In this document: in pieces, positions 41,410-62,538 of the stretch
Layout: every line of letters begins with the position of its first letter
Numbering within the stretch: position 1 is the stretch's first letter
Assembly: GCA_031265205.1 (NCBI GenBank)
Contig: JAISCZ010000051.1
Span: forward strand, 1 to 64,000
Direction of reading: 5' to 3'
DNA length: 64,000 bases
DNA from: Deltaproteobacteria bacterium
Lineage (GTDB): Bacteria; Desulfobacterota; Desulfarculia; Adiutricales; Adiutricaceae
The notes under the pieces: generated by a model
What the model saw: the letters and a program-made list of their open reading frames with translations, nothing else
The model's database searches: none
What the model was told of the DNA's origin: nothing
Made by a program: the position numbers and the translations under genes

Positions 41410-42633
41410 TTAGCCGCTTTTTTCCCGCGGGCCCGCCGCCTTGGAGAGTTCGGGCGCGGGGGCTCTCGCCGCTTCCGCGAGAGGCTCCGCCGCGCGCGGG
41501 AATTCCGGGGACGCCGGGAACTCCGGGGCCGCCGCGGCCAGGGAGGCGGCGGGGAGCGCTCCTTGGGAGGACGCGGCGAGTTCTCCCCGCGAGGCCGCGC
41601 CTTGGGCGCGCCGGCGCGCGCTCTCCCGCGCGGGTTTGGCGCGGGTTATTTCCACGCGCGCGCGCTCCGGCGCCCGCGCCGTGGCGGGGCTCTCGCCGAG
41701 GCGCGAGATTTTCAGCGCGAAGGCGCGCTCCCCTTTTTCTTTTTTCCCCAAGGCCTCCGCGGCGGGCGCGCTCTCTTGGGCTTCCACGGAAAGGATTTCC
41801 GTGGCGGCGAGGTTCCAACGGTAGGCCCCGCGCGGCAGATAGAGAACCTTTAAGGCGAGTCCCCTCTCCCGCGCGAGGCTTTGGGCGCCGTCCTGGAGCG
41901 CGCTGGGCGCCAGCGCGCGCCGCCTCCCGTCGCGTATCAGCGCGAGGGCCGCGCGCGGCGGCGTCTCTTCCGCCGCGAGAAGGGCGCCCAGCCTCGCCAG
42001 GGCGAAGGCCGCGAAGTCCTCGGCCCGCTCGGGGGGCGGCGGCGGCGGCGCGCCGCTCTCCCGGGGCTCGGGCTCCAAGATCTCGCAAAAGAGGGCCCAG
42101 TCCCCCGTCTCCAGGGCGCGCGCCGTTTCCGCGTTGATTTGGGCGAAGGTCGCGCAAAATTCCGGATCGGGGCCCGTTCCGCCCCGCTTCTGGTTGCCCT
42201 TGAGGCGGTAGCCCAGATCCTTTAAGAGCTGACCCACTTTAACGTAACTGATGGGGTGCTGGAGCGCGACAAGTTCCTTGGCGAGGGTTCTGGTGCTCTT
42301 TTGGGTCCAGGACAGCGGGCCCTGGGGCGCCGCGCCCGTTTCCCGCGCCAAAAGCCCGTTTAAGGCGGAAATGAGCTCCGGGTCGGATTTAGCCAGAGGG
42401 GGCCGGCCCGCGCCGGGTTTGCGGACCCGGGCGCCGATTTGGGGAGGGGAGTCCAACTCCTTGACTCCCTTGCTGATGGTCGCCCGGGAGAGCCCGCAGA
42501 GAGAGCTTACGAGGGTGACGCCGCCGTAGCCCAATTTTTTGGCCTCCGCGGCGGCGAAAAGCCTTTTCTCCTTTTCCGAGAGCTGGGGCCAGGCCGTTTT
42601 AAAGATTTCGGTCAATTTTTCGCGTGATTCCAT
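41410..42633 (-). CDS. ISAzo13-type transposase homologue with degenerate catalytic centre
   Basis: 407 residues, uninterrupted. The N-terminal 175 residues match ISAzo13-family transposases: KRLFAAAEAKKLGYGGVT, the helix-turn-helix CGLSRATISKGVKEL, RKPGAGRPPL, LSWTQKSTRTLAKEL and VGQLLKDLGYRLKGNQK. The catalytic half is eroded. The VDTKKKE position reads CEILEPE (Asp to Glu184). The ADGG position keeps Asp235 (RDGRRR). The WNKIEH position reads WNLAATE (Glu to Ala277), and about 60 residues between the first and second acidic positions are gone. The last 120 residues are Ala/Pro/Glu-rich low-complexity sequence not found in transposases. I infer loss of transposition with retained DNA binding, possibly domestication. 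No flanking inverted repeats were identified. Confidence 0.65.
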   Translation of the reverse strand: MESREKLTEIFKTAWPQLSEKEKRLFAAAEAKKLGYGGVTLVSSLCGLSRATISKGVKELDSPPQIGARVRKPGAGRPPLAKSDPELISALNGLLARETGAAPQGPLSWTQKSTRTLAKELVALQHPISYVKVGQLLKDLGYRLKGNQKRGGTGPDPEFCATFAQINAETARALETGDWALFCEILEPEPRESGAPPPPPPERAEDFAAFALARLGALLAAEETPPRAALALIRDGRRRALAPSALQDGAQSLARERGLALKVLYLPRGAYRWNLAATEILSVEAQESAPAAEALGKKEKGERAFALKISRLGESPATARAPERARVEITRAKPARESARRRAQGAASRGELAASSQGALPAASLAAAAPEFPASPEFPRAAEPLAEAARAPAPELSKAAGPREKSG

Positions 42634-42829: not shown

Positions 42830-44200
42830 TCATAAGGCCTCGCGGAGGGCCTCGTTAAAGACCCTGACAATGGTTTCGACGTCTTCCTTGGTGGCGATAT
42901 AGGCCGGCGCGAAGTTGATGATATTGTTGAAGCCCCGCATGGAGCGGTTGGTGCGGCCCACGAGGACTCCTTTGGAGGCCATGGCCGCCGCCACGGCGAC
43001 GACCCGCTCCTCCGGGAGGGGAGCGCGCGTTTTTTTGTCCGCGACGAATTCCACCCCGCAGAGGAGGCCCACGCCCCGCGCGTCGCCCACCCAAGGGTGG
43101 GAGAGAGTTTCTTTGAGGCCCGCGAGCAAAAGTTCCCCCTGTTTCCGGACGTTGGAAAGGAGGTTTTCCTCCTCAATAATCCGGAGGCAGGCGAGGGCGG
43201 CCGCGGGCGCGGCCGCCGAGCCCCCGAAGGTGGATATGTCCCGAAAGTAATGGAGTTTGTCCTCCAGCGCGCCGTCGGGCTCGCTTCCCGCCTCGTCCCG
43301 GAAGGCCTCAAAGACGCGCTCCGCGACCCAGGTGACGGAGATGGGCATATAGGCGCTGGCGAGGCCCTTGGCCAGGGTCACGATATCGGGTCGGATCCCG
43401 TAACGCTGAAAGGCGAACATCTCCCCGGTCCGGCCCACGCCCGTGACGACCTCGTCGAGGATTAAAAGCGCGTCGGCCGCGCGGACGAGCCCCGCGACTT
43501 CCGGCCAATACTCGGGCGGGGGAACGATAATCCCGCCTCCGGCGACGACGGTCTCAAAGATGGCGGCCCCGACTTTGCCCTCCTCCCTTTCCAAGAGCGC
43601 GCCGACGGCGCGGGCGCAGTCCAGAGAGCAGTCCGGATACCTTTTCCCGAAAGGGCAGCGGTAGCAGTTGACCGCGGGCGCCTCCACGAAGCCCGGGGCG
43701 AAGGGCCCGAAACCGCTCCGGCGCTCGCCCTGGCCCGCCGCGGAAAGGGCGCCGATGGTGGTCCCGTGGTAGTCGCGGTCGCGGTAGAGCACGCGTTCCT
43801 TGCCGTTCCCGCGCGCGCTCGAAAGGAGGCGCGCGATCTTAAAGGCCTTTTCGTTGGCCTCGGAGCCGCTGCTGGAGTAATAGGCCCGGGTGAGGCTCGG
43901 CTCGTGGGACGAAAGTTTTTCCGCCAAGAGGGCCGCGGGGACGTTGCCCGCCGTGGGGGAGAAATAGGGCATCTTAACGAGCTGGTCGTAGACCGCCTGG
44001 GCTATTTCCGCGCGCCCGTAGCCCACGTTGACGCACCAGACGCCCCCGGAGGTGGCGTCGAGGTATTCGCGGCCGCGCGCGTCCCGGACCCTCAGGCCGC
44101 TGGCCTCGACTATCATCGGGCCTAAGGGGCCCCGGTAATCGGTTAAATGGCGCCAAACGTGGTCGCGGTCGCTCTCAAGGGGGCGGGAGTAATCTGTCAT
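42830..44200 (-). CDS. tpa: Taurine--pyruvate aminotransferase
   Basis: 456 residues, a class III PLP aminotransferase of the Bilophila Tpa type. It moves the amino group of taurine to pyruvate, giving sulfoacetaldehyde and alanine. Visible: YYSSSGSEANEKAFKIAR (PLP phosphate), YRDRDYHGTTIGALSAAGQ, LLILDEVVTGVGRTGEMF (Asp249) and the PLP lysine K278 in TLAKGLASAYMPIS. A Cys-rich segment (CYRCPFGKRYPDCSLDC, residues 179-195) is also present in Tpa. It is the last gene of the tauC-tauA-tauB-islA-tpa operon, 204 bases after islA. Context with a sulfonate transporter and an isethionate-lyase-type enzyme makes taurine the likely substrate. Confidence 0.9.
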   Translation of the reverse strand: MTDYSRPLESDRDHVWRHLTDYRGPLGPMIVEASGLRVRDARGREYLDATSGGVWCVNVGYGRAEIAQAVYDQLVKMPYFSPTAGNVPAALLAEKLSSHEPSLTRAYYSSSGSEANEKAFKIARLLSSARGNGKERVLYRDRDYHGTTIGALSAAGQGERRSGFGPFAPGFVEAPAVNCYRCPFGKRYPDCSLDCARAVGALLEREEGKVGAAIFETVVAGGGIIVPPPEYWPEVAGLVRAADALLILDEVVTGVGRTGEMFAFQRYGIRPDIVTLAKGLASAYMPISVTWVAERVFEAFRDEAGSEPDGALEDKLHYFRDISTFGGSAAAPAAALACLRIIEEENLLSNVRKQGELLLAGLKETLSHPWVGDARGVGLLCGVEFVADKKTRAPLPEERVVAVAAAMASKGVLVGRTNRSMRGFNNIINFAPAYIATKEDVETIVRVFNEALREAL

Positions 44201-44404: not shown

Positions 44405-46906
44405 TTAAAGGCTCTCGTGTCCCCGCCGGGCGATGAGGTCGTTTTGGAGGTCCCGCGAGAGATCGGTGAAATAGGCGCTGTAGCCCGCGACGCGCACGAT
44501 GAGGTTCCGGTATTCCTCCGGGTTTTTTTGGGCCTTGATTAAGGTTTCCTGGTTAATCACGTTGAACTGCGCGTGCCAGAGCTTTAAATCGCAGAAGGCG
44601 CGGATAAAGGACACGAGCTTGTCCGTGCCCTCCTCCCCCGCGAGGCTTTGGGGGGTAAACTTCAGGTTGAGCATGCGGGCCGCCCGGCCCGCCAGGTCGA
44701 CGTTTTTCGTGCGGTAATTGGAAAGGAGGACGCTCGTGGGCCCGTTCTCGTCCGCTCCCTGGGAGGGCGAGGCCCCGTCGGAGAGGGGGAACCAGGCGAG
44801 CCTCCCGTTGGGGGTGGCGGCGATGACTTTCCCGAAGGGCACGTGGGAGGTGAAAGGCACGTAGCGGACGTCGTTATGGATTCCCAAGTCCTTGGAGTAT
44901 TTCTCCGCGAACCGCACCGTGACCCGGTCCAGCTCGCGGGCGACCTCGTCCGCCCGGGGATCGTCGTTTCCGTAGCGGGGGGCCCTTTGGAGGAGGGCCC
45001 GCGCGACTTCGTGGCCCACGAAGTTGTCCTCCAGGGCCGCCAGCGTCCGTTCCATGGAAAGTTTCTTTTCCTCGAAGACGACGCTCTTTAAGGCGACGAG
45101 GGAGTCGGTCACGGTTCCGTAGCCGATAAACTCCACGTAGCCCAAATCGATCCCCTCGGGGGAGCGCTCCTGATGGAGATCGACCGCGTGCTTCATGGCC
45201 AGGTCGTGGAGGGCCGAGCCCAAGGGCTGGGCGAAGCTCTGGGCGCGGAGCCGGTTCACGTGCCACTGCTGGATAAAGGCGGCCCTGAGCAAATGGTAAT
45301 GCTGGGCGAGATAGGCCTCGAAGAGCGCGTCGAAGCTTCGCAATTCCGTCGGCGGGGGCGTGACGGGCCCCAGTTGGATCCCGGGGTAGCGTTTCAGTTG
45401 GCCGCGCCTTAAAGTCATCTCCAGAGCCGCCGCGAAATTGACGTAGGCGCCCCCGGAGGTGTAGGTGTCCCGGTTGGGCATACGGGCCTCGGAGCAGCCC
45501 GAGACCGCGTAGTCCAAAGCCTCCCGGAAAGTCGCGCCCTTTTGCACGTAGAGGGGGATCACCTCCTCGTCGTTGATGAGCTTGGGAAAACCCGTCCCGT
45601 CCTTGATGGTCTCGGCCACGTCCGCCAAAAAGGCCCGCGGGGACTTGAGGTGCACCCGGGCGGCCAGATCGGGGTAATGGAGCGGGAACTCCCGTTTGGA
45701 GCGCAAAAAGAGGTGGCTTAAAGGGTTCGTGGCGTCAAGGCCCTCGGGGGTCTGGCCGCCGATGGTCACGGCCTCCCAGTGGGCGTAGCCTTCGTTGAAG
45801 GCCCCGCCCGCGGGGGAGACGTAGAGGTCCACGAACTCGGAGAGGTTGACCCAGAGGCATTCCAAAAGCTCCAAGGCCCCTTCCTCGTCCAGGCGGCCTT
45901 CCTCCAGGTCTTTTTTATAATAAGGATAGAGGTACTGATCCATGCGCCCGTTGGAGACGATGGTCCCGGTCTTTTGCTCTAAGCGCGAGAGGACCTGGGT
46001 GAGCCACTGGGCCTGGAGGGCCTCGTGGAAGGTGGAGCTGGGCTCCCAGGGGACTTTAAAGGAAATGGCCGCGAGCTTTTCCAACTCCGCGCGCCGCGCG
46101 GGGTCGATCCCGTCTTTGGCGGCCTCGTGGAGGGCCGCCTCGGCGTGCCGGCGCGCGAAGGTCCGCGCGGCTTCGCAGACGATGAGGACGGACTCGTAGA
46201 AGGGCTTTTTGGCGCAGTTGTCCCGGGGACTGTAGGGGTCCAGGGCCGCGAGTTTTTCTTGGGCCTCTTCCGCGAGGCCCCGAAAGCCCCCGCGGAGGAT
46301 CTTCTCGTAGTCGTGGACCCATTGGATGGAGGAGCGGAAGGAGGCGGTCTCGTTGACGATAAAGCGCGAGACTAAGCCTTGGGGGTCGTCGTAGGTGAGG
46401 CGGTGGACGTCCGGTGGCAGGGCGGCGCAAAGGGCCTCGTGGAAGGTGCGGCCCTTCCAGAAAGGGACGATTTCCCGAAGGACGACGGGGATATCCTCCG
46501 GGTCGACGCTCGCGGGGGAGCTTTCCCGCTCGGGAAGCTTTTGGAGGGCCTCGCCCAAGAAATCCCCGTCCAGTTCCGGGTAGAGGATCCCGTGGCGGCC
46601 GGGCTTGCCGGCGCGCCCCAAAAGGAGTTGGCCCTCGATGGGGCGCGCGGTTATATTTTCCGCGACGCGCTTTAAGGCCAGCGCCCACCTGAGATTTAAG
46701 GGCAGGCCCACGGTTTCGGACATGGAGCGGGTAAAGTAGAGGGCCCTTTCAATGTCTATCCGGGGCTTTTGGCTTTGCCCTTTTTGGAGAAGAAGCGCGA
46801 CTCTCTCCCGGGCCGCGCGGGCGGGGCCGCCCGCGCGCGCGGAAAGGATTCTCTTTTCCTGGGGGGAAAGGTCGAGCGCGCTCTCAAAGCTCGCGTTAAT
46901 GTCCAT
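44405..46906 (-). CDS. islA: Isethionate sulfite-lyase (glycyl radical enzyme)
   Basis: 833 residues, a PFL-like glycyl radical enzyme. The radical site is G808 in RVAGYSAYF; the thiyl Cys and acid/base Glu are C471 and E473 in SGCSEARMPN. From memory, Bilophila IslA uses R189, Q193, C468, E470 and R678. Here R191, Q195, C471, E473 and R681 occur at the same spacing, which supports isethionate over choline, glycerol or propanediol. The reaction cleaves isethionate to acetaldehyde and sulfite. The ATG at 46906 follows GGGAG at eight bases; the site lies in the last codons of tauB, whose stop is five bases upstream. The required radical-SAM activator (IslB) is not in the window. The protein is oxygen-sensitive, hence the organism is anaerobic. 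Confidence 0.87.
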   Translation of the reverse strand: MDINASFESALDLSPQEKRILSARAGGPARAARERVALLLQKGQSQKPRIDIERALYFTRSMSETVGLPLNLRWALALKRVAENITARPIEGQLLLGRAGKPGRHGILYPELDGDFLGEALQKLPERESSPASVDPEDIPVVLREIVPFWKGRTFHEALCAALPPDVHRLTYDDPQGLVSRFIVNETASFRSSIQWVHDYEKILRGGFRGLAEEAQEKLAALDPYSPRDNCAKKPFYESVLIVCEAARTFARRHAEAALHEAAKDGIDPARRAELEKLAAISFKVPWEPSSTFHEALQAQWLTQVLSRLEQKTGTIVSNGRMDQYLYPYYKKDLEEGRLDEEGALELLECLWVNLSEFVDLYVSPAGGAFNEGYAHWEAVTIGGQTPEGLDATNPLSHLFLRSKREFPLHYPDLAARVHLKSPRAFLADVAETIKDGTGFPKLINDEEVIPLYVQKGATFREALDYAVSGCSEARMPNRDTYTSGGAYVNFAAALEMTLRRGQLKRYPGIQLGPVTPPPTELRSFDALFEAYLAQHYHLLRAAFIQQWHVNRLRAQSFAQPLGSALHDLAMKHAVDLHQERSPEGIDLGYVEFIGYGTVTDSLVALKSVVFEEKKLSMERTLAALEDNFVGHEVARALLQRAPRYGNDDPRADEVARELDRVTVRFAEKYSKDLGIHNDVRYVPFTSHVPFGKVIAATPNGRLAWFPLSDGASPSQGADENGPTSVLLSNYRTKNVDLAGRAARMLNLKFTPQSLAGEEGTDKLVSFIRAFCDLKLWHAQFNVINQETLIKAQKNPEEYRNLIVRVAGYSAYFTDLSRDLQNDLIARRGHESL

Positions 46907-46911
46907 GTGGG

Positions 46912-47808
46912 TCACTCCCGTTCTTTTTCGCTTAAGCGCGGCCCTAAGGCCGCTTCCGCGTCGCGGTCGGCGCGACCGGCGATCAGATCCAAAATAGCCT
47001 TGCGGGCCCGGTAGAATTCCTCGGAAAACCACGCTCGGTCGTCGGAATCCTCGATAAAGGCCCGGCTGAACCCCAAGGAAAACTCCCGGGCGATTGTTCC
47101 GGGGGACTCGGTCATGACGAGGACCCGGGTCGCGAGCTTTAAGGCCTCGTCCACGTCGTGGGTGATAAAGAAAATGGTCTTGCGGGAGTTCCACCAGATT
47201 TTGCGGACGAGATCCTGCATTTTTTCCCGGGTCAAAGCGTCCAAGGCCCCAAAAGGCTCGTCCATGAGGAGAATCATGGGGTCGTTAATGAGGGAACGGG
47301 CGATGGCCACCCGCTGTTTCATGCCCCCGGAAAGCTCGTAGACCTTTTTGTCCGCCCAGGCGGAAAGGCCCACCCGCTCCAAAAAGACCGCGACGGAGCG
47401 CCTGATTTCCTCCTTGGGACGGTGGCGGGCCTTGGGGCCGAAGGCCACGTTTTCCCAGACGGAAAACCACTCGAAGAGGGGCGGCTTCTGGAAGACCACA
47501 CCCCGGTGCCAGTCCACCCCGGAGATTTCCTTTTGGCTTAAAAGGACGCGTCCTTCCGAAGGGGCGACGAAGCCCGCGAGGATATTTAAAATGGTGCTCT
47601 TGCCGCAGCCCGAGGGGCCCATGACGCAGACGAATTCCCCGGGGAAGACGCTGAAATTCACGTTTAAGATGGCGGCGCGCCGTTTTTCCCCCCGCCCGTA
47701 ATAGAGGGAGAGATTCTGGGCGCCAATGAGATCCTCGGGGACCTCGTAGGGCCCGGGAAAATCCTCGGGACGGTCCGGGGGCGGCGGGGAAAGGGGCTCT
47801 GGGGTCAT
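46912..47808 (-). CDS. tauB: Taurine/sulfonate ABC transporter, ATP-binding protein
   Basis: 298 residues. Walker A GPSGCGKST, Q-loop region VVFQKPPLFEW, signature LSGGMKQRVAIARSL, Walker B ILLMDEPFGALD and the H-loop THDVDEAL are all intact. It belongs to the nitrate/sulfonate/taurine (SsuB/TauB) group and powers import by the TauC permease. About 25 Pro-rich residues precede the nucleotide-binding domain. AAGG lies six bases before the ATG at 47808. Its 3' end carries the ribosome site of islA. Confidence 0.92.
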   Translation of the reverse strand: MTPEPLSPPPPDRPEDFPGPYEVPEDLIGAQNLSLYYGRGEKRRAAILNVNFSVFPGEFVCVMGPSGCGKSTILNILAGFVAPSEGRVLLSQKEISGVDWHRGVVFQKPPLFEWFSVWENVAFGPKARHRPKEEIRRSVAVFLERVGLSAWADKKVYELSGGMKQRVAIARSLINDPMILLMDEPFGALDALTREKMQDLVRKIWWNSRKTIFFITHDVDEALKLATRVLVMTESPGTIAREFSLGFSRAFIEDSDDRAWFSEEFYRARKAILDLIAGRADRDAEAALGPRLSEKERE

Positions 47809-47910: not shown

Positions 47911-48984
47911 TTATTGGGCCTTTAAGGCTTCCTCCAGATAATGGCCGTTCACGGCGGCCTGGTATAAAGCGAGATCGCCCGCCTCCGCGAGGTTTTTCTG
48001 GGTTACGTGGAAATCGGCCGTGTCTTTGAGGGTGTTCGCGAAGCGCCCCGGATTTCCGGTGGTCCCCAGGTACTGTTCGCCCAGCTGCTCCTGGCCTTTG
48101 ACGTAGTTGTTGCCCGAGAGCTGCTCCGCGGCCTCCGTCGGGCTTACCCCGATATTGCGGGCGACGATGGCCGCCGCTCTTTGGGGCTCGTCGTTAATAA
48201 TATTGTTGGTCCGAACCAGGGCGGCGACGTAATTGGCGACCAGGGTCGGGTATTTTTGGGCGAAGCTTTGGCGGACCACCGTGACGTCGGCCGTGGTCGC
48301 GCCCTTCGCGGCGAGTTGGAGGCTGTCTGTGACAATGACCCCGTCGTTTTGGACGAGTTCCTTCAAGACCGGGGTCCAGACGTAGGCGGCGTCAATGTCC
48401 CCGCGGATCCAGGCGGCCAGAATGTCCTGGGTTTGGAGGTCGAGGATGGTCACGTCGTTCGGGTTCACGTTTTCCAGCTGGAGCGCGGCCAGGAGGCTGT
48501 AATGGGCCGTGGAGGCGAAGGGGGTGGCGACTTTTTTGCCGACGAGGTCGGCGACGGAGCGGACGCCGGATTTTTTGGTGGCCACCAGGGACTCGGCCGG
48601 CCCGATAACGTCATTGATAAAAATCACCTCGTAGCCGAGCTTGTTGGAGACGCCCAAAGACACCGGGGAAGAGCCGATGGTCGCGGCGTCGACGCCCCCC
48701 GCGGCGAAGGCCGTGTTGATATCCTTGCCGCTGTCAAAAAAGATCACCTTGGCGGGAACCCCCAATTCGTTAAAAAAGCCTTCCTCGATGGGAATGGCGG
48801 TGGCCGTGGCGCTGTTGAAGGTCGCGATGTTGAAGACTTCGGGGTAAGTCTCGCCGGTGATAGGATCGGTGGCGGCGAAAAGGCGCGCGCCGGAAAGCGT
48901 CAGAGACAGGGCGGCGGCGGCCAAAAGGATGAGGGGAAGGCTGGCGAGGGATACAAAGGGGCGGGGCGGGGTCGTCCGAGACAT
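47911..48984 (-). CDS. tauA: Taurine/sulfonate ABC transporter, periplasmic binding protein
   Basis: 357 residues. A signal peptide (SLASLPLILLAAAALSLTLS, cut probably after LFA near residue 38) precedes an NMT1/TauA-type periplasmic domain: FNIATFNSATATAIPIEEGF, GGVDAATIGSSPVSLGVSNK, LVATKKSGVRSVADLVGKKV, and IRGDIDAAYVWTPVLKEL (the family's substrate-cleft region). It delivers taurine, or another short sulfonate, to TauBC. The ATG at 48984 was chosen because GGAG lies seven bases upstream and the signal peptide follows; the frame runs open to 49692 but is unlike any protein there. Confidence 0.92.
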   Translation of the reverse strand: MSRTTPPRPFVSLASLPLILLAAAALSLTLSGARLFAATDPITGETYPEVFNIATFNSATATAIPIEEGFFNELGVPAKVIFFDSGKDINTAFAAGGVDAATIGSSPVSLGVSNKLGYEVIFINDVIGPAESLVATKKSGVRSVADLVGKKVATPFASTAHYSLLAALQLENVNPNDVTILDLQTQDILAAWIRGDIDAAYVWTPVLKELVQNDGVIVTDSLQLAAKGATTADVTVVRQSFAQKYPTLVANYVAALVRTNNIINDEPQRAAAIVARNIGVSPTEAAEQLSGNNYVKGQEQLGEQYLGTTGNPGRFANTLKDTADFHVTQKNLAEAGDLALYQAAVNGHYLEEALKAQ

Positions 48985-49184
48985 AAATAAACTCCGGGAA
49001 AAAAAGGTTAAGGGCGAGGGGGAAAGAAAATAACGGTTCAGGGGAGCGGCGCTGGGGGGGCGCCTTGGGAAAAAGAGTTTTTGAGGACTGAGGCCTTGCT
49101 GGGCCTTGAGGGGCCTTGTGGGGCTTAATGGCCCTTGGCGGGCTGAGGTTGGCCCTGGGGGGAAAAGGCCGCGAAAGCCGGGCG

Positions 49185-49958
49185 CTATTCGCGTCCCTTC
49201 CAAAAAACGATTTTGCGCTCCAAAAGGTTTAAGGCCCCGTCTAAAACGATTCCCGTAAGGCCCATGACGATGATCCCCATAAAAATCACGTCGCTTTGGA
49301 GGTATTTGCTGGCGTCCAAGACCATCCAGCCGATTCCCGAGATGGCGGCCACCATTTCGGCCGCGACCAGGGTGCTGTACATAAAGCCCAAAGAGGTCCT
49401 CAGGCCCACGAAGACGTCGGGGAGGGCCACGGGGAAGATGACGAGGAAGAAGACGCGCTGGGAACTGGCCCCCAGGGTTTTGGCCCCGTTCACGTAATCG
49501 GGGCGCATGCGGGCCACGCCGGCCACGGAGGAGATATACATGGGCGAAAAGCCGGCCAGGAAGAGGAGGGCGATTTTGGAGCCGTCGTCGATGCCCATCC
49601 AGAGAACCAGGACCGTGTAATAGGCCAGGGGCGGAAGGGGGCGGTAGAAAGAAACGAGCGGGTCGAGGGCGGAGCGGAGTTTGGGGAGGCACCCGCTTAA
49701 GAGCCCTAGGGGAACGGCCGTGACCATGGCGAGCCCGTAGGCGATAAAAAGGCGCCTTAAGCTGTCGGCTAGGTGGGCTACGAGGCTGTGGCCTTTGTAG
49801 CCGTCCTCCCAGATAAGCCAGAATTTTTGGAGAACGCCCCCGGGGGACGGTAGGATAATCCGCGGCAGGTCGGCGAAACGAGCGACCAGATACCAGGCGA
49901 GCAGGATGATTCCCGCCGCCAATACGCCGTAAATTTTGTTCGCGAAAAAGCGCCGCAT
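49185..49958 (-). CDS. tauC: Taurine/sulfonate ABC transporter, permease
   Basis: 257 residues with six predicted membrane helices (first VLAAGIILLAWYLVARF). The EAA loop GAKTLGASSQRVFFLVIFPV, which contacts the ATPase, is conserved. It is a BPD_transp_1 / SsuC-TauC family member and the first gene of the operon. AAGG lies four bases before the ATG at 49958. 200 bases separate it from tauA. Confidence 0.92.
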   Translation of the reverse strand: MRRFFANKIYGVLAAGIILLAWYLVARFADLPRIILPSPGGVLQKFWLIWEDGYKGHSLVAHLADSLRRLFIAYGLAMVTAVPLGLLSGCLPKLRSALDPLVSFYRPLPPLAYYTVLVLWMGIDDGSKIALLFLAGFSPMYISSVAGVARMRPDYVNGAKTLGASSQRVFFLVIFPVALPDVFVGLRTSLGFMYSTLVAAEMVAAISGIGWMVLDASKYLQSDVIFMGIIVMGLTGIVLDGALNLLERKIVFWKGRE

Positions 49959-58971: not shown

Positions 58972-60758
58972 GCGCGCTAAAAGCGCCGAGAGCCCCTCCC
59001 CCGCCGCCGCCCCGCCGCGAGACTCTTTGGGGATAATTTCTGACAAAGGCCTGGGCCACGCCGCCAAGGGCTTGGCTTTACGCCCTTCGCGCGTCGCGAG
59101 ACCCTCTCGCGCCTCGCGCGCCCGCGCCACGAGAGTTCCCCTTCGCGCGACTAATTCCGCGATTGACGCCTGTTTTCAGACAAATTGAGGCAAAGCCTTA
59201 ATGAGACTTTGAGGGCCTTCCCCGGCTCTTTAAGGCGCCTCGCCGCAAACGGCGCGCCGCGAAAGGCGCTTGGGAAGGGGTTTGGCGGTTTTAGGGAGCG
59301 TCCCCCTCAGGCGGCGAGCCGCCAAGGCTTAAAGGTTCGCGGCGCGGACGCTGGGCGCTCTTTCCTTCGTGAAGCCGGGCGCGCGAGCCCTGCCCACGGG
59401 CTAACGCGGCGGCGCCGTTCTTTGGAGCCAATCCGCCCACTCGCGTTAAATTCGGCGCCCGCGAGGCGGCGGTCGCCGCCGGATTTCTCCCAGGAGTTTG
59501 GCCCTGGGCGCTTTCTTGGAGTTCTGGCGCGGGTCGCGCGCCTTTTTTAACTCCTTCGCGGGCGCCCGCGTCCGTCCGCGGCGCCGGCTACGCGCGCGAT
59601 CGCGGCGCTGGTCTTCTGGATCGCCGCGTCTCCTGGCGCGGAGGCGGGAATTGGCGCGCCGAAGCCAGTCGCGGGGTCATAAAGGCTCGCTCCGAATACG
59701 CCCGTGGAGGATGAGCGGACGCGCCGTAGGCGCGACGCGCTGGGGCGAGAGGGGCGCGGGGCGATTTTGAGGCCTTGGCCGTCGCGTCCAAAAGAGGCGG
59801 ATGGGCGACTTGACGGAGGCGCGCCGCGTAAGGCGCGAACGCCGGCGAGGCGTCCGCGTGGGACGGAGGGACAAAAGCGTTTTGACTTTGTCGTTAGGGC
59901 CGCGAAAGCTTCGGGGGCCTTGGCGCGCCCAAAGGTCCCTCAAAGCGTGGTTGGCCCCGCGAGACGCGTAATTCCAATCTCAAAGGGGACTCTCGCGACC
60001 GTTTGGGACGGCGCCGGCGAAGCGTCGCCGCGAGGAGACTCGCTTTAGGCGCGAGTGAAAAGAGGGGCGGGGAAGAGGCCTTGGGGGCGGGACTTCCTTT
60101 TGTCGACTTCGCCTGAAAGCTTGACGGAGTCGGGAACTGGGTATGGGGGATCTTCTTTGGTCTCTTTCTCCGTTTTGGGGGTCGTCTGGGGAGGTCTGGG
60201 CGGTCGCGGAGAGGTTTAGCGTTCAAGAGTTAAGCGCCGATATCCTCAGTCTTTCAAAATTGCCTTAAGGCCGTTCAGCTCTGGTTAAAGTTGATGAAAG
60301 CGCAAAAACCTTAAAGAGAAGCAACCGGACGCAAAATACTACCGCATATAGCTATTTATCTAATTAATTGTCCTCATTTAGCATTAGCGGCTGACCGAAT
60401 TTAAGTTTCGGGACTTTTTGCGCTCTCATCAAAGTTAGCCTTGGCCAGCGTCGCGGGTCGACTCCCCGTCTGACGGCCTCCTTGAGCCCGGACCAGGAGA
60501 AGGTCGCGCGGCTCCCATTCTTGAGCCATTGGCGTGACTTTTTCGCCGCGAAAGGAAGCGACCGAAGCTCGCTCGGCTCCCCTCGCCCCTTCTGGGGACT
60601 CCAGGCCTCAAGGCCCTGGGGTTGGCCTGGGCCGCTCGGGCCTTTTGAGGAGCGAAATTTATGGCGGAGTCGCCCAGCGAATATTATAATATTTCTTGAC
60701 GTTGGCGTGGCCTGGTTGTGGGATTTATATTGGAGAGGCAAGGCTAAAGGTGGAATAT
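58972..60758. other. Long intergenic region containing MITE copy 2
   Basis: About 1.8 kb, GC-rich to about 60240, with many open frames but no recognisable protein. It then holds the MITE-like element (60291-60432). An AT-rich leader for the next gene includes TATAAT at about 60685 without a good -35. Confidence 0.55.
60291..60432. mobile_element. MITE-like 142-bp element, copy 2
   Basis: Same length and orientation as the element at 4454-4595. Termini TTGATGAAAGCGCAAAAA and TTTTTGCGCTCTCATCAA are complementary at 17 of 18 positions. It sits about 330 bases upstream of a broken AAA-like/PD-(D/E)XK gene. No protein is encoded. Confidence 0.65.
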
Positions 60759-62538
60759 ATGTTGCCAGAACTGCCCGCTGGGACGCGTGCCTTTGAGGAA
60801 TTACGGATAAGAAATACCATATATGTGGATAAGACCAATTATTTTCCATTATTGTCTAGGGGGAGAAAAGTCGCCTTTTGCGCCCGTCCCAGGCGTTTCG
60901 GAAAATCTTTGACCGTTTCGGCTCTTAACGCTTTTTACTCCGGGAGGAAAGAGCTTTTTCAAGATTTGGCCGCCGAGAAGTTTATGAATTCCCCAGAATT
61001 TTTTCCAAAACCGGTTATCCACCTTGACATGAGCGAATTAGATAACTGCGTAAGTCTAGAAAATCTGGAAACGAAAGCGCGAAATTATTTAAAAACTATC
61101 GCGGAACAGTACAATGTCTCCTTACAAACCGATGACGTGGTTAGCGCCTTTTCCAATTTGTTGAAGAGTGTCCACGATGTCACATCCAAAAAAATCGTCT
61201 TATTGATTGACGAATATGATACGCCCATTCTCAGTATAATCCGGAGGGAATTAACCTATAGCGGCCTTCTGATTGAACAAACCCAAAACTTCATGAGTTC
61301 ATTTTATTCAAAAATAAAATCTAATGATCAGTATCTTGATTTTATCTTTGTCACCGGAGTTTCCAAGTTTTCTCGGATGGGGGGCTTTTCCACTCTCAAT
61401 AACCTCGAGGATATCTCGAATGATTCTGAATTCGCGTCCTTTATGGGCTTGACTCAGGAGGAGTTAGAGCGTTACTTCGCCCCGTATGTCCAGGCAGGAT
61501 ACGGCGGAACATCTCAAAATGGAAGAAGCGGAGCTTTTAAATCGCGTACGAGACTATTATGATGGTTATTCTTTTGATGGAAAAATCAGGGTCTATAATC
61601 CCTTCTCCACTCTGCTTTTCTTTAAAAAAAGAAAATTCAACAAATACTGGATAGAATCCTGTTCCAACGGACTCATTCGGAAATTCTTGAAAGACCGGAA
61701 CCTTGTCTTGGAAAATTTTTCCGGCTTTAAAGTCAACGAAGATTTTATCAGTTCTCCCGGGGAAATCGGCTCAACGCCTCCGGCTGGATTTCTTTACCAG
61801 GCGGGATATTTGACCTTGCGTAAAAATGACCAAGGATCCTTCTTCCTGGACTATCCCAACTTTGAAGTCCGGTCCGCGCTAGCCGCCCTGTTCATGGATA
61901 ATTTATATTCATCAGAGGATCTAGCCCTGTACGCTAGGGTGGAAATGGGCGATTATCTGGCCGTCGGCGACGTTCCGAACATGGTAGCCAATATTAGGCG
62001 TATGTACTCTGGCCTAACTTATCTGGATCATACGGATATAGTTTCCCCAAGGTTGGTTAGGAGAATTATGGGAGTATTTTCCAAGTTTTTGGGGAAACAA
62101 TCTCGGGATCTTCCTGTTTTGAACTTCAGTGAGACTTATCTGGAAGAGTTGCGCCAGAAGCTGGGAGAGTCTTTCTATCGGGCAACTTTACAAGCGTGTC
62201 TGTGGGGGGCTGAAGCCATTGTGCGTCCTGAAGCGCGTACTAATCTTGGCCGGATAGATTTAGAGGTCAGGTATAAAGACCAGGTTTTCATTATTGAGTT
62301 GAAAACGGCCCAAGGCGCTCGCGCCGCCCTGAAGGCGGCCCGCGCGGGGATGGCTCAGATCCAGAAACGCGACTACGGAGGGACCCACAACAACCCTATC
62401 CTCATTTCTATGGCCGTGGATTTAGAAATTCGTAACCTCGGAGCGTGCGTCTTCGCCAAAAACGGCGAGATCACGATTCTGGACAGCGGGGCTTTGAATC
62501 TCCTCAATAAACCTAAGGCGATAAGCGGAGAAAATTAA
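60759..62538 (+). pseudogene. AAA-ATPase-like / PD-(D/E)XK protein, frameshifted (copy 4)
   Basis: The first part (60759-61562) starts MLPELPAGTRAFEELRIRNT and holds YVDKTNYF, the Walker-A-like FCARPRRFGKSLTVSALNAF, VLLIDEYDTPILS and FVTGVSKFSRM. The second part (from 61486, one frame over) continues AEHLKMEEAELLNRVRDYYD and ends with the nuclease core LGRIDLEVRYKD and FIIELKTAQ. One extra base near 61492-61496 (around TCCAGGCAGGA) explains the shift; joined, they give about 590 residues, normal for the family. AAGGTGGA before the ATG at 60759 is a good ribosome site. It may be a real mutation, a sequencing error or two separate products. The relatedness is to copy 1 at 743. Confidence 0.8.

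Follow-up and report, generated by a model that had tools for sequence, protein, structure and literature searches.

A domesticated, catalytically dead ISAzo13 transposase as a probable regulator of a sulfur acquisition and storage locus in Adiutricaceae

Within a 64,000-nucleotide stretch of DNA from a deltaproteobacterial genome of the family Adiutricaceae (GenBank assembly GCA_031265205.1, contig JAISCZ010000051.1, positions 1 to 64,000; hereafter the window), the minus-strand gene at 41410-42633 encodes a 407-residue protein that descends from ISAzo13-type transposases and has lost their aspartate-aspartate-glutamate (DDE) catalytic triad. The protein and its orthologues, which we term clade A, combine ISAzo13 homology and triad loss with purifying selection, a single gene copy per genome, conserved synteny and a lack of terminal repeats, and the domestication of the ancestral transposase is well supported by the alignment, selection and locus checks taken together. 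We consider it probable that the dead enzyme has been kept as a DNA-binding regulator of the sulfur acquisition and storage locus in which it lies. An earlier examination of the window, made from the nucleotide letters without database searches (the sequence-only reading), had raised domestication as a possibility; none of the findings that would have spoken against it, namely an intact triad, relaxed selection or absence from sister genomes, was encountered.

Results

The open reading frame (ORF) begins with an ATG at 42633 and continues uninterrupted for 407 codons, in agreement with the intact ISAzo13-type frame proposed by the sequence-only reading. The encoded protein matches the ISAzo13 profile NF033519 with 142.5 bits and PF07592 with 55 bits; the former match covers residues 16-178 and profile positions 3-168 only and lies below the curated cut-off of 200, so that ISAzo13 ancestry is established for the DNA-binding half, by profile matches and by a tree of that half, rather than by a full-length match above the cut-off. 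Alignment against an intact D-D-E copy from the same genome (G000:C176) places E184 (codon 42082-42084), D235 (41929-41931) and A277 (41803-41805) at the three triad positions, the same Glu, Asp and Ala that the sequence-only reading had assigned. Because the automatic alignment is off by one residue at the second position, the D235 assignment hangs on one gap placement; inspected by eye across clade A, this position reads D in 10 of 11 proteins and E in one. The first position is non-acidic (Q, M or R) in three members, and the triad is replaced in all 11. The suspected deletion between the first two positions is likewise borne out, with a spacing of 51 residues in the window protein versus 93 in the intact copy and about 42 core residues gone, while the second and third positions lie 42 and 43 residues apart, respectively.

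The further argument that an open frame outlasting catalysis itself signals domestication held only in part: the frame is open and catalysis is lost, but frame survival alone is weak evidence, because the gene has 70% GC and a spurious 354-residue ORF is open in another frame of the same stretch. In neutral simulations with substitutions only, the frame stayed open with a probability of about 0.2 (~18%) at 0.1 substitutions per site and of ≤0.006 at 1.0, and chance survival of an ORF in GC-rich DNA was judged an insufficient explanation. The frame of the orthologue in genome G007 is open at 47% GC. The decisive evidence for domestication is comparative rather than the open frame by itself.

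An AlphaFold model of the window protein, together with homology, reveals helix-turn-helix (HTH)-like domains in the N-terminal half, for which DNA binding is predicted. The first helical domain (residues 1-61; 42451..42633, minus strand) comprises helices 3-17, 20-34, 38-46 and 50-61, a block with a predicted local distance difference test (pLDDT) score of 77-92, and the second (residues 80-140; 42214..42396, minus strand), which carries the invariant alignment columns of the SWTxKSTR...HPISYVKVGQ block, comprises helices 80-83, 85-99, 111-123 and 130-139. They are followed by what was once the catalytic region (residues 179-287; 41773..42099, minus strand), now shrunken, for which the model shows an RNase H-like order of strands and helices. 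The low-complexity tail described earlier is also evident: residues 291-407 are rich in Ala, Pro and Arg, residues 332-403 are predicted to be disordered, and the tail proper (residues 332-407; 41413..41640, minus strand) is conserved neither in length nor in sequence among the orthologues. The N-terminal helices are mostly confident; with a mean pLDDT of 69 and a predicted template modelling score (pTM) of 0.49, the overall domain arrangement is unsure, and the model of the compact G007 orthologue is no better (pTM 0.47). A sequence search for relatives of the window protein with solved structures returned none. In three genomes of genus g7 (L037:2034-4082, L038 and L039), extended insertions of low complexity separate the first N-terminal domain from the second and lengthen the clade A proteins to as many as 683 residues in total.

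To place the protein among its relatives, we gathered homologues that align over both halves from whole genomes belonging to its own family, order or class, and built the tree on the N-terminal half only, so that the lost catalytic columns could not drive the grouping. Clade A, consisting of the window protein and ten others, is monophyletic with support of 100/99 and is present in exactly one copy in each of the 11 genomes of genera g1, g2, g7 and g8; the search of the family's 26 other genomes yielded no member. The genus order in its gene tree is similar to that in the tree of a second triad-less group (clade B, below), with g1 outermost in both, as vertical descent predicts. The carriers are most likely termite-gut metagenome-assembled genomes (MAGs) of Adiutricaceae, which has been described as a termite-gut family (PMC9137090).

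Ratios of nonsynonymous to synonymous substitution rates (dN/dS, or omega) were calculated as pairwise NG86 medians among the six species of g7, whose median synonymous divergence is 0.54-1.03. Constraint is strongest in the DNA-binding half (median omega 0.116 in the first domain and 0.133 in the second), weaker in the former catalytic half (0.32) and weakest in the tail (0.53), so that purifying selection has acted on clade A after the loss of transposition (omega 0.12-0.32), and the helix-turn-helix half is as well kept as the sequence-only reading had judged. The window copy, which is nearly saturated at synonymous sites in every comparison with an orthologue, could be assessed only indirectly: it shows no departure at 24 conserved N-terminal sites that active copies share with clades A and B, seven mostly conservative departures among 68 sites at which the other ten members do not vary, and departures at four of seven conserved C-terminal sites. 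Its N-terminal-half branch (0.59) is similar in length to the paths that lead from the root to the g2 and g8 orthologues and no longer than those of most orthologues, and its DNA-binding half gives no indication of relaxed selection.

Of 15 triad-intact ISAzo13 copies, at least 8 are flanked by terminal inverted repeats (TIRs) that exceed those of shuffled sequences, and most of these repeats include an AGG start. None that is convincing against shuffles was found at clade A or clade B loci, including that of the window gene, where the best arm pair falls within the shuffle range, and the matches of a TIR-like ISAzo13 consensus to clade A loci are all poor (4-7 mismatches). Orthologues in sister genomes occupy the same locus and lack flanking inverted repeats, as domestication would predict.

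The locus itself joins clade A to two sets of sulfur genes. Upstream in the window, all on the minus strand, lie a class III aminotransferase gene (42830..44200), about 200 bp from the clade A ATG; a glycyl-radical enzyme of the (2S)-3-sulfopropanediol dehydratase type, HpsG (44405..46918; NF048011, 1332 bits against a cut-off of 1000); an ABC transporter ATPase (46912..47808), whose best family, a taurine ATPase, scores below cut-off (231.8 versus 357 bits); and an ABC transporter substrate-binding protein (47911..49000, upstream end approximate) and permease (49185..49958), both named from sequence and operon position. This order, from permease to clade A on one strand, is complete in the window and in G028 and partial in G014 (ATPase to clade A) and G020 (enzyme to clade A), and in G028, G014 and G020 alike the gene next upstream of clade A is the orthologous aminotransferase. 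Downstream, within the reach of their contigs, seven genomes from three genera share the same-strand order clade A, cysM, JAB (Prok-JAB), ThiF/rhodanese, SrpI, cysteine desulfurase and cysE, in which the shell gene encodes a family 2A encapsulin of the SrpI type (NF041162) and the cysteine desulfurase is its cargo. G014 is the sole genome in which both sets flank the gene on one contig; in the genomes where no sulfonate enzyme was detected (g2, g8, G006 and G032), clade A adjoins cysM wherever the contig permits the check. Overall, 11 of 11 genomes hold a single copy of the gene, and its locus is conserved as far as the contigs allow this to be seen, one half of the locus having been lost in G000 and G028. 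A GGAGGA Shine-Dalgarno sequence and the start region are conserved before the gene in five g7 loci, and the spacers between clade A and cysM reach 1.3 kb; an Rfam search of eight loci, these spacers included, found no riboswitch or small RNA and matched only a tRNA in L032. Farther along the window, at 60696-62538, two overlapping ORFs appear by eye to be one split AAA-ATPase/PD-(D/E)XK-type gene.

Clade A is not the only triad-less ISAzo13 lineage of the family. Clade B, found in 23 genomes in one copy each and represented in the window genome by G000:C92 (L040:7847-9067), has E/D, then D/E, then A/S/C/N/Q at the triad positions, neighbours a flavodoxin gene in 22 of these, with nuo (complex I) genes also near in about ten, and is under purifying selection in its N-terminal half (omega 0.08-0.19). 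Clade C, from six g7 genomes (L098:3822-5729, L101:3202-4518 and four more), reads E, G and A/C/V, follows genes for a CheA-like kinase and a response regulator, and is more weakly constrained (omega 0.40/0.61). Its placement among another set of active copies, separate from A and B (99/97), indicates at least two independent triad losses; a single loss common to A and B could account for those two. Clade D comprises very divergent ISAzo13 homologues near an 844-residue glycogen phosphorylase-type gene in four g6 genomes (L108, L109, L110 and L111). Outside the family, a Lentisphaeria MAG carries a lone ISAzo13 homologue (L057:4520-5656) with S, D and A at the triad positions near a protein-kinase-like gene, possibly a separate case.

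Discussion

We propose that an ISAzo13 transposase ancestor would have lost its DDE triad and terminal repeats before the split of g1, g2, g7 and g8, and that the dead protein would then have been vertically inherited in single copy and retained for its DNA-binding half. A protein in which this half is the most strictly kept, catalysis and element ends are gone, and the gene stands in single copy at an operon junction would most simply be a local regulator. Clade A proteins may act as sequence-specific transcriptional regulators of their own sulfur locus, with the organosulfonate uptake and cleavage genes as the upstream target and those for cysteine synthesis and encapsulin-based sulfur storage as the downstream one; binding to operator DNA would fall to the two helical domains of the N-terminal half, and the reduced RNase H-like part could serve in oligomerisation or sensing instead of DNA cutting. 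We infer the regulatory role, and with it DNA binding, the position of an operator, the direction of control and any ligand, from sequence.

Several observations weigh against this proposal. In the window genome, the cysteine/encapsulin operon lies on a separate contig (C162) with no clade A gene adjacent, so one of the two associations has been lost there, and in G028 the linkage of clade A to cysM is absent within about 2 kb on either side. Genera without clade A carry both sulfur clusters, so the protein is not required for them. No operator is established at the clade A loci: a CGGAA-N6-CTTGAC element that precedes cysM by 143-199 bp in three of six g7 loci, and stands in similar form upstream of clade A in G032 only, was found post hoc; it is a lead and may be an inherited -35 box. 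A Foldseek search with the window model returned nothing under E 0.001, its best match, IstA (E 2.4e-3), being a weak transposase match. Finally, a glutamate two residues past A277 (E279) is conserved in 10 of 11 clade A orthologues, so that residual metal chemistry is possible in some members.

If E279 and the E/D pair formed a shifted active site, clade A could be an enzyme with a new nuclease or recombinase activity, in line with the acidic residue near the second triad position in all 11 proteins and with the retention of the fold region in the AlphaFold model; yet three orthologues carry Q, M or R at the first position, evolution is faster in the catalytic than in the DNA-binding half, and about 42 residues of the core are gone, and we regard such altered chemistry as extremely improbable. 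Hardly more credible is that the window gene is an ordinary decaying transposase whose frame stays open by chance. The GC content, the spurious long ORF in another frame, the low-complexity tail, the simulated survival at low divergence and the departures of the window copy at conserved C-terminal sites are all compatible with decay, but the same triad loss in every carrier genome, the conserved synteny, the omega values among the six g7 orthologues, and the window copy's unaltered universally conserved N-terminal sites and unexceptional branch length largely refute it for clade A as a whole.

Two further possibilities were weighed. As a dominant-negative repressor, the dead protein would bind ISAzo13 ends and silence active copies, and its conserved DNA-binding half indeed closely resembles that of active copies, intact examples of which occur in several clade A-bearing genomes, including the window's own. 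A fixed site beside sulfur genes in several genera is not what such a function predicts, however; the TIR-like consensus matches poorly at clade A loci, and the lineages persist in genomes whose examined copies include none with an intact D-D-E triad, clade A in G007 (93% complete) and G001 (91% complete) and clade B in G016, G029 and G008, all of which makes this role quite unlikely. Domestication for another DNA- or RNA-binding role than promoter control, such as chromosome organisation, antitermination or structural partnership, would fit the moderate constraint on the RNase H-like part, the long spacers to cysM with no recognised RNA family and the lack of an established operator. It fits less well with the HTH-like architecture and the strong constraint on that half, or with the operon-border position, at which local regulators typically sit, and we consider it unlikely, if somewhat less so than repression of active copies. 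Regulation of the adjoining sulfur locus by a domesticated transposase is the reading that we prefer.

On a broader scale, the chances seem to us about even that Adiutricaceae have repeatedly recruited dead ISAzo13 DDE transposases as local regulators, which occur once per genome and accompany different conserved gene sets: sulfonate, cysteine and encapsulin genes for clade A, flavodoxin and often nuo for B, the CheA-like kinase and response regulator for C, and glycogen phosphorylase for D. With several triad-less clades that go back to at least two independent origins, the family lends itself to asking how an end-binding domain turns into a promoter-binding one.

We found no description of ISAzo13 domestication in the open-licence literature, a scope that does not permit a claim of priority. 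Clade A shares common ancestry with ISAzo13 transposases (NF033519, PF07592), as the alignment of its DNA-binding half attests, and differs from them in lacking the triad, about 42 core residues and terminal repeats and in being inherited vertically, once per genome, at a conserved locus. Eukaryotes offer well-known examples of DDE transposases that were domesticated as transcription factors. The plant factors FHY3/FAR1 are transposases turned transcriptional regulators, as proposed here for clade A, and differ from it in their eukaryotic host, their Mutator-like ancestor and the experimental proof of their function (PMC13306707). The downstream operon, with its SrpI shell, desulfurase, CysE, rhodanese and cysteine synthase, is of the known family 2A encapsulin cysteine-desulfurase kind (PMC8346489), and the word "transposase" is absent from the main text of that survey. 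Clade A offers both a candidate regulator for encapsulin sulfur-storage operons and a testable bacterial DDE example, the clear bacterial cases of transposase-to-regulator conversion in our literature search concerning TnpB. Among those, the nearest parallel is TldR, nuclease-dead TnpB-like proteins domesticated as repressors (PMC13418256), which resemble clade A in their transposon origin, repeated catalytic inactivation and tight tie to particular host genes. TldR is an RNA-guided RuvC protein, whereas clade A is a DDE transposase with HTH domains and ISAzo13 rather than TnpB ancestry, for which a guide RNA is neither expected nor found in the Rfam search of eight loci and for which regulation is predicted from sequence; clade A would represent the DDE counterpart of TldR, arriving at gene control by a protein-DNA rather than an RNA-guided route.
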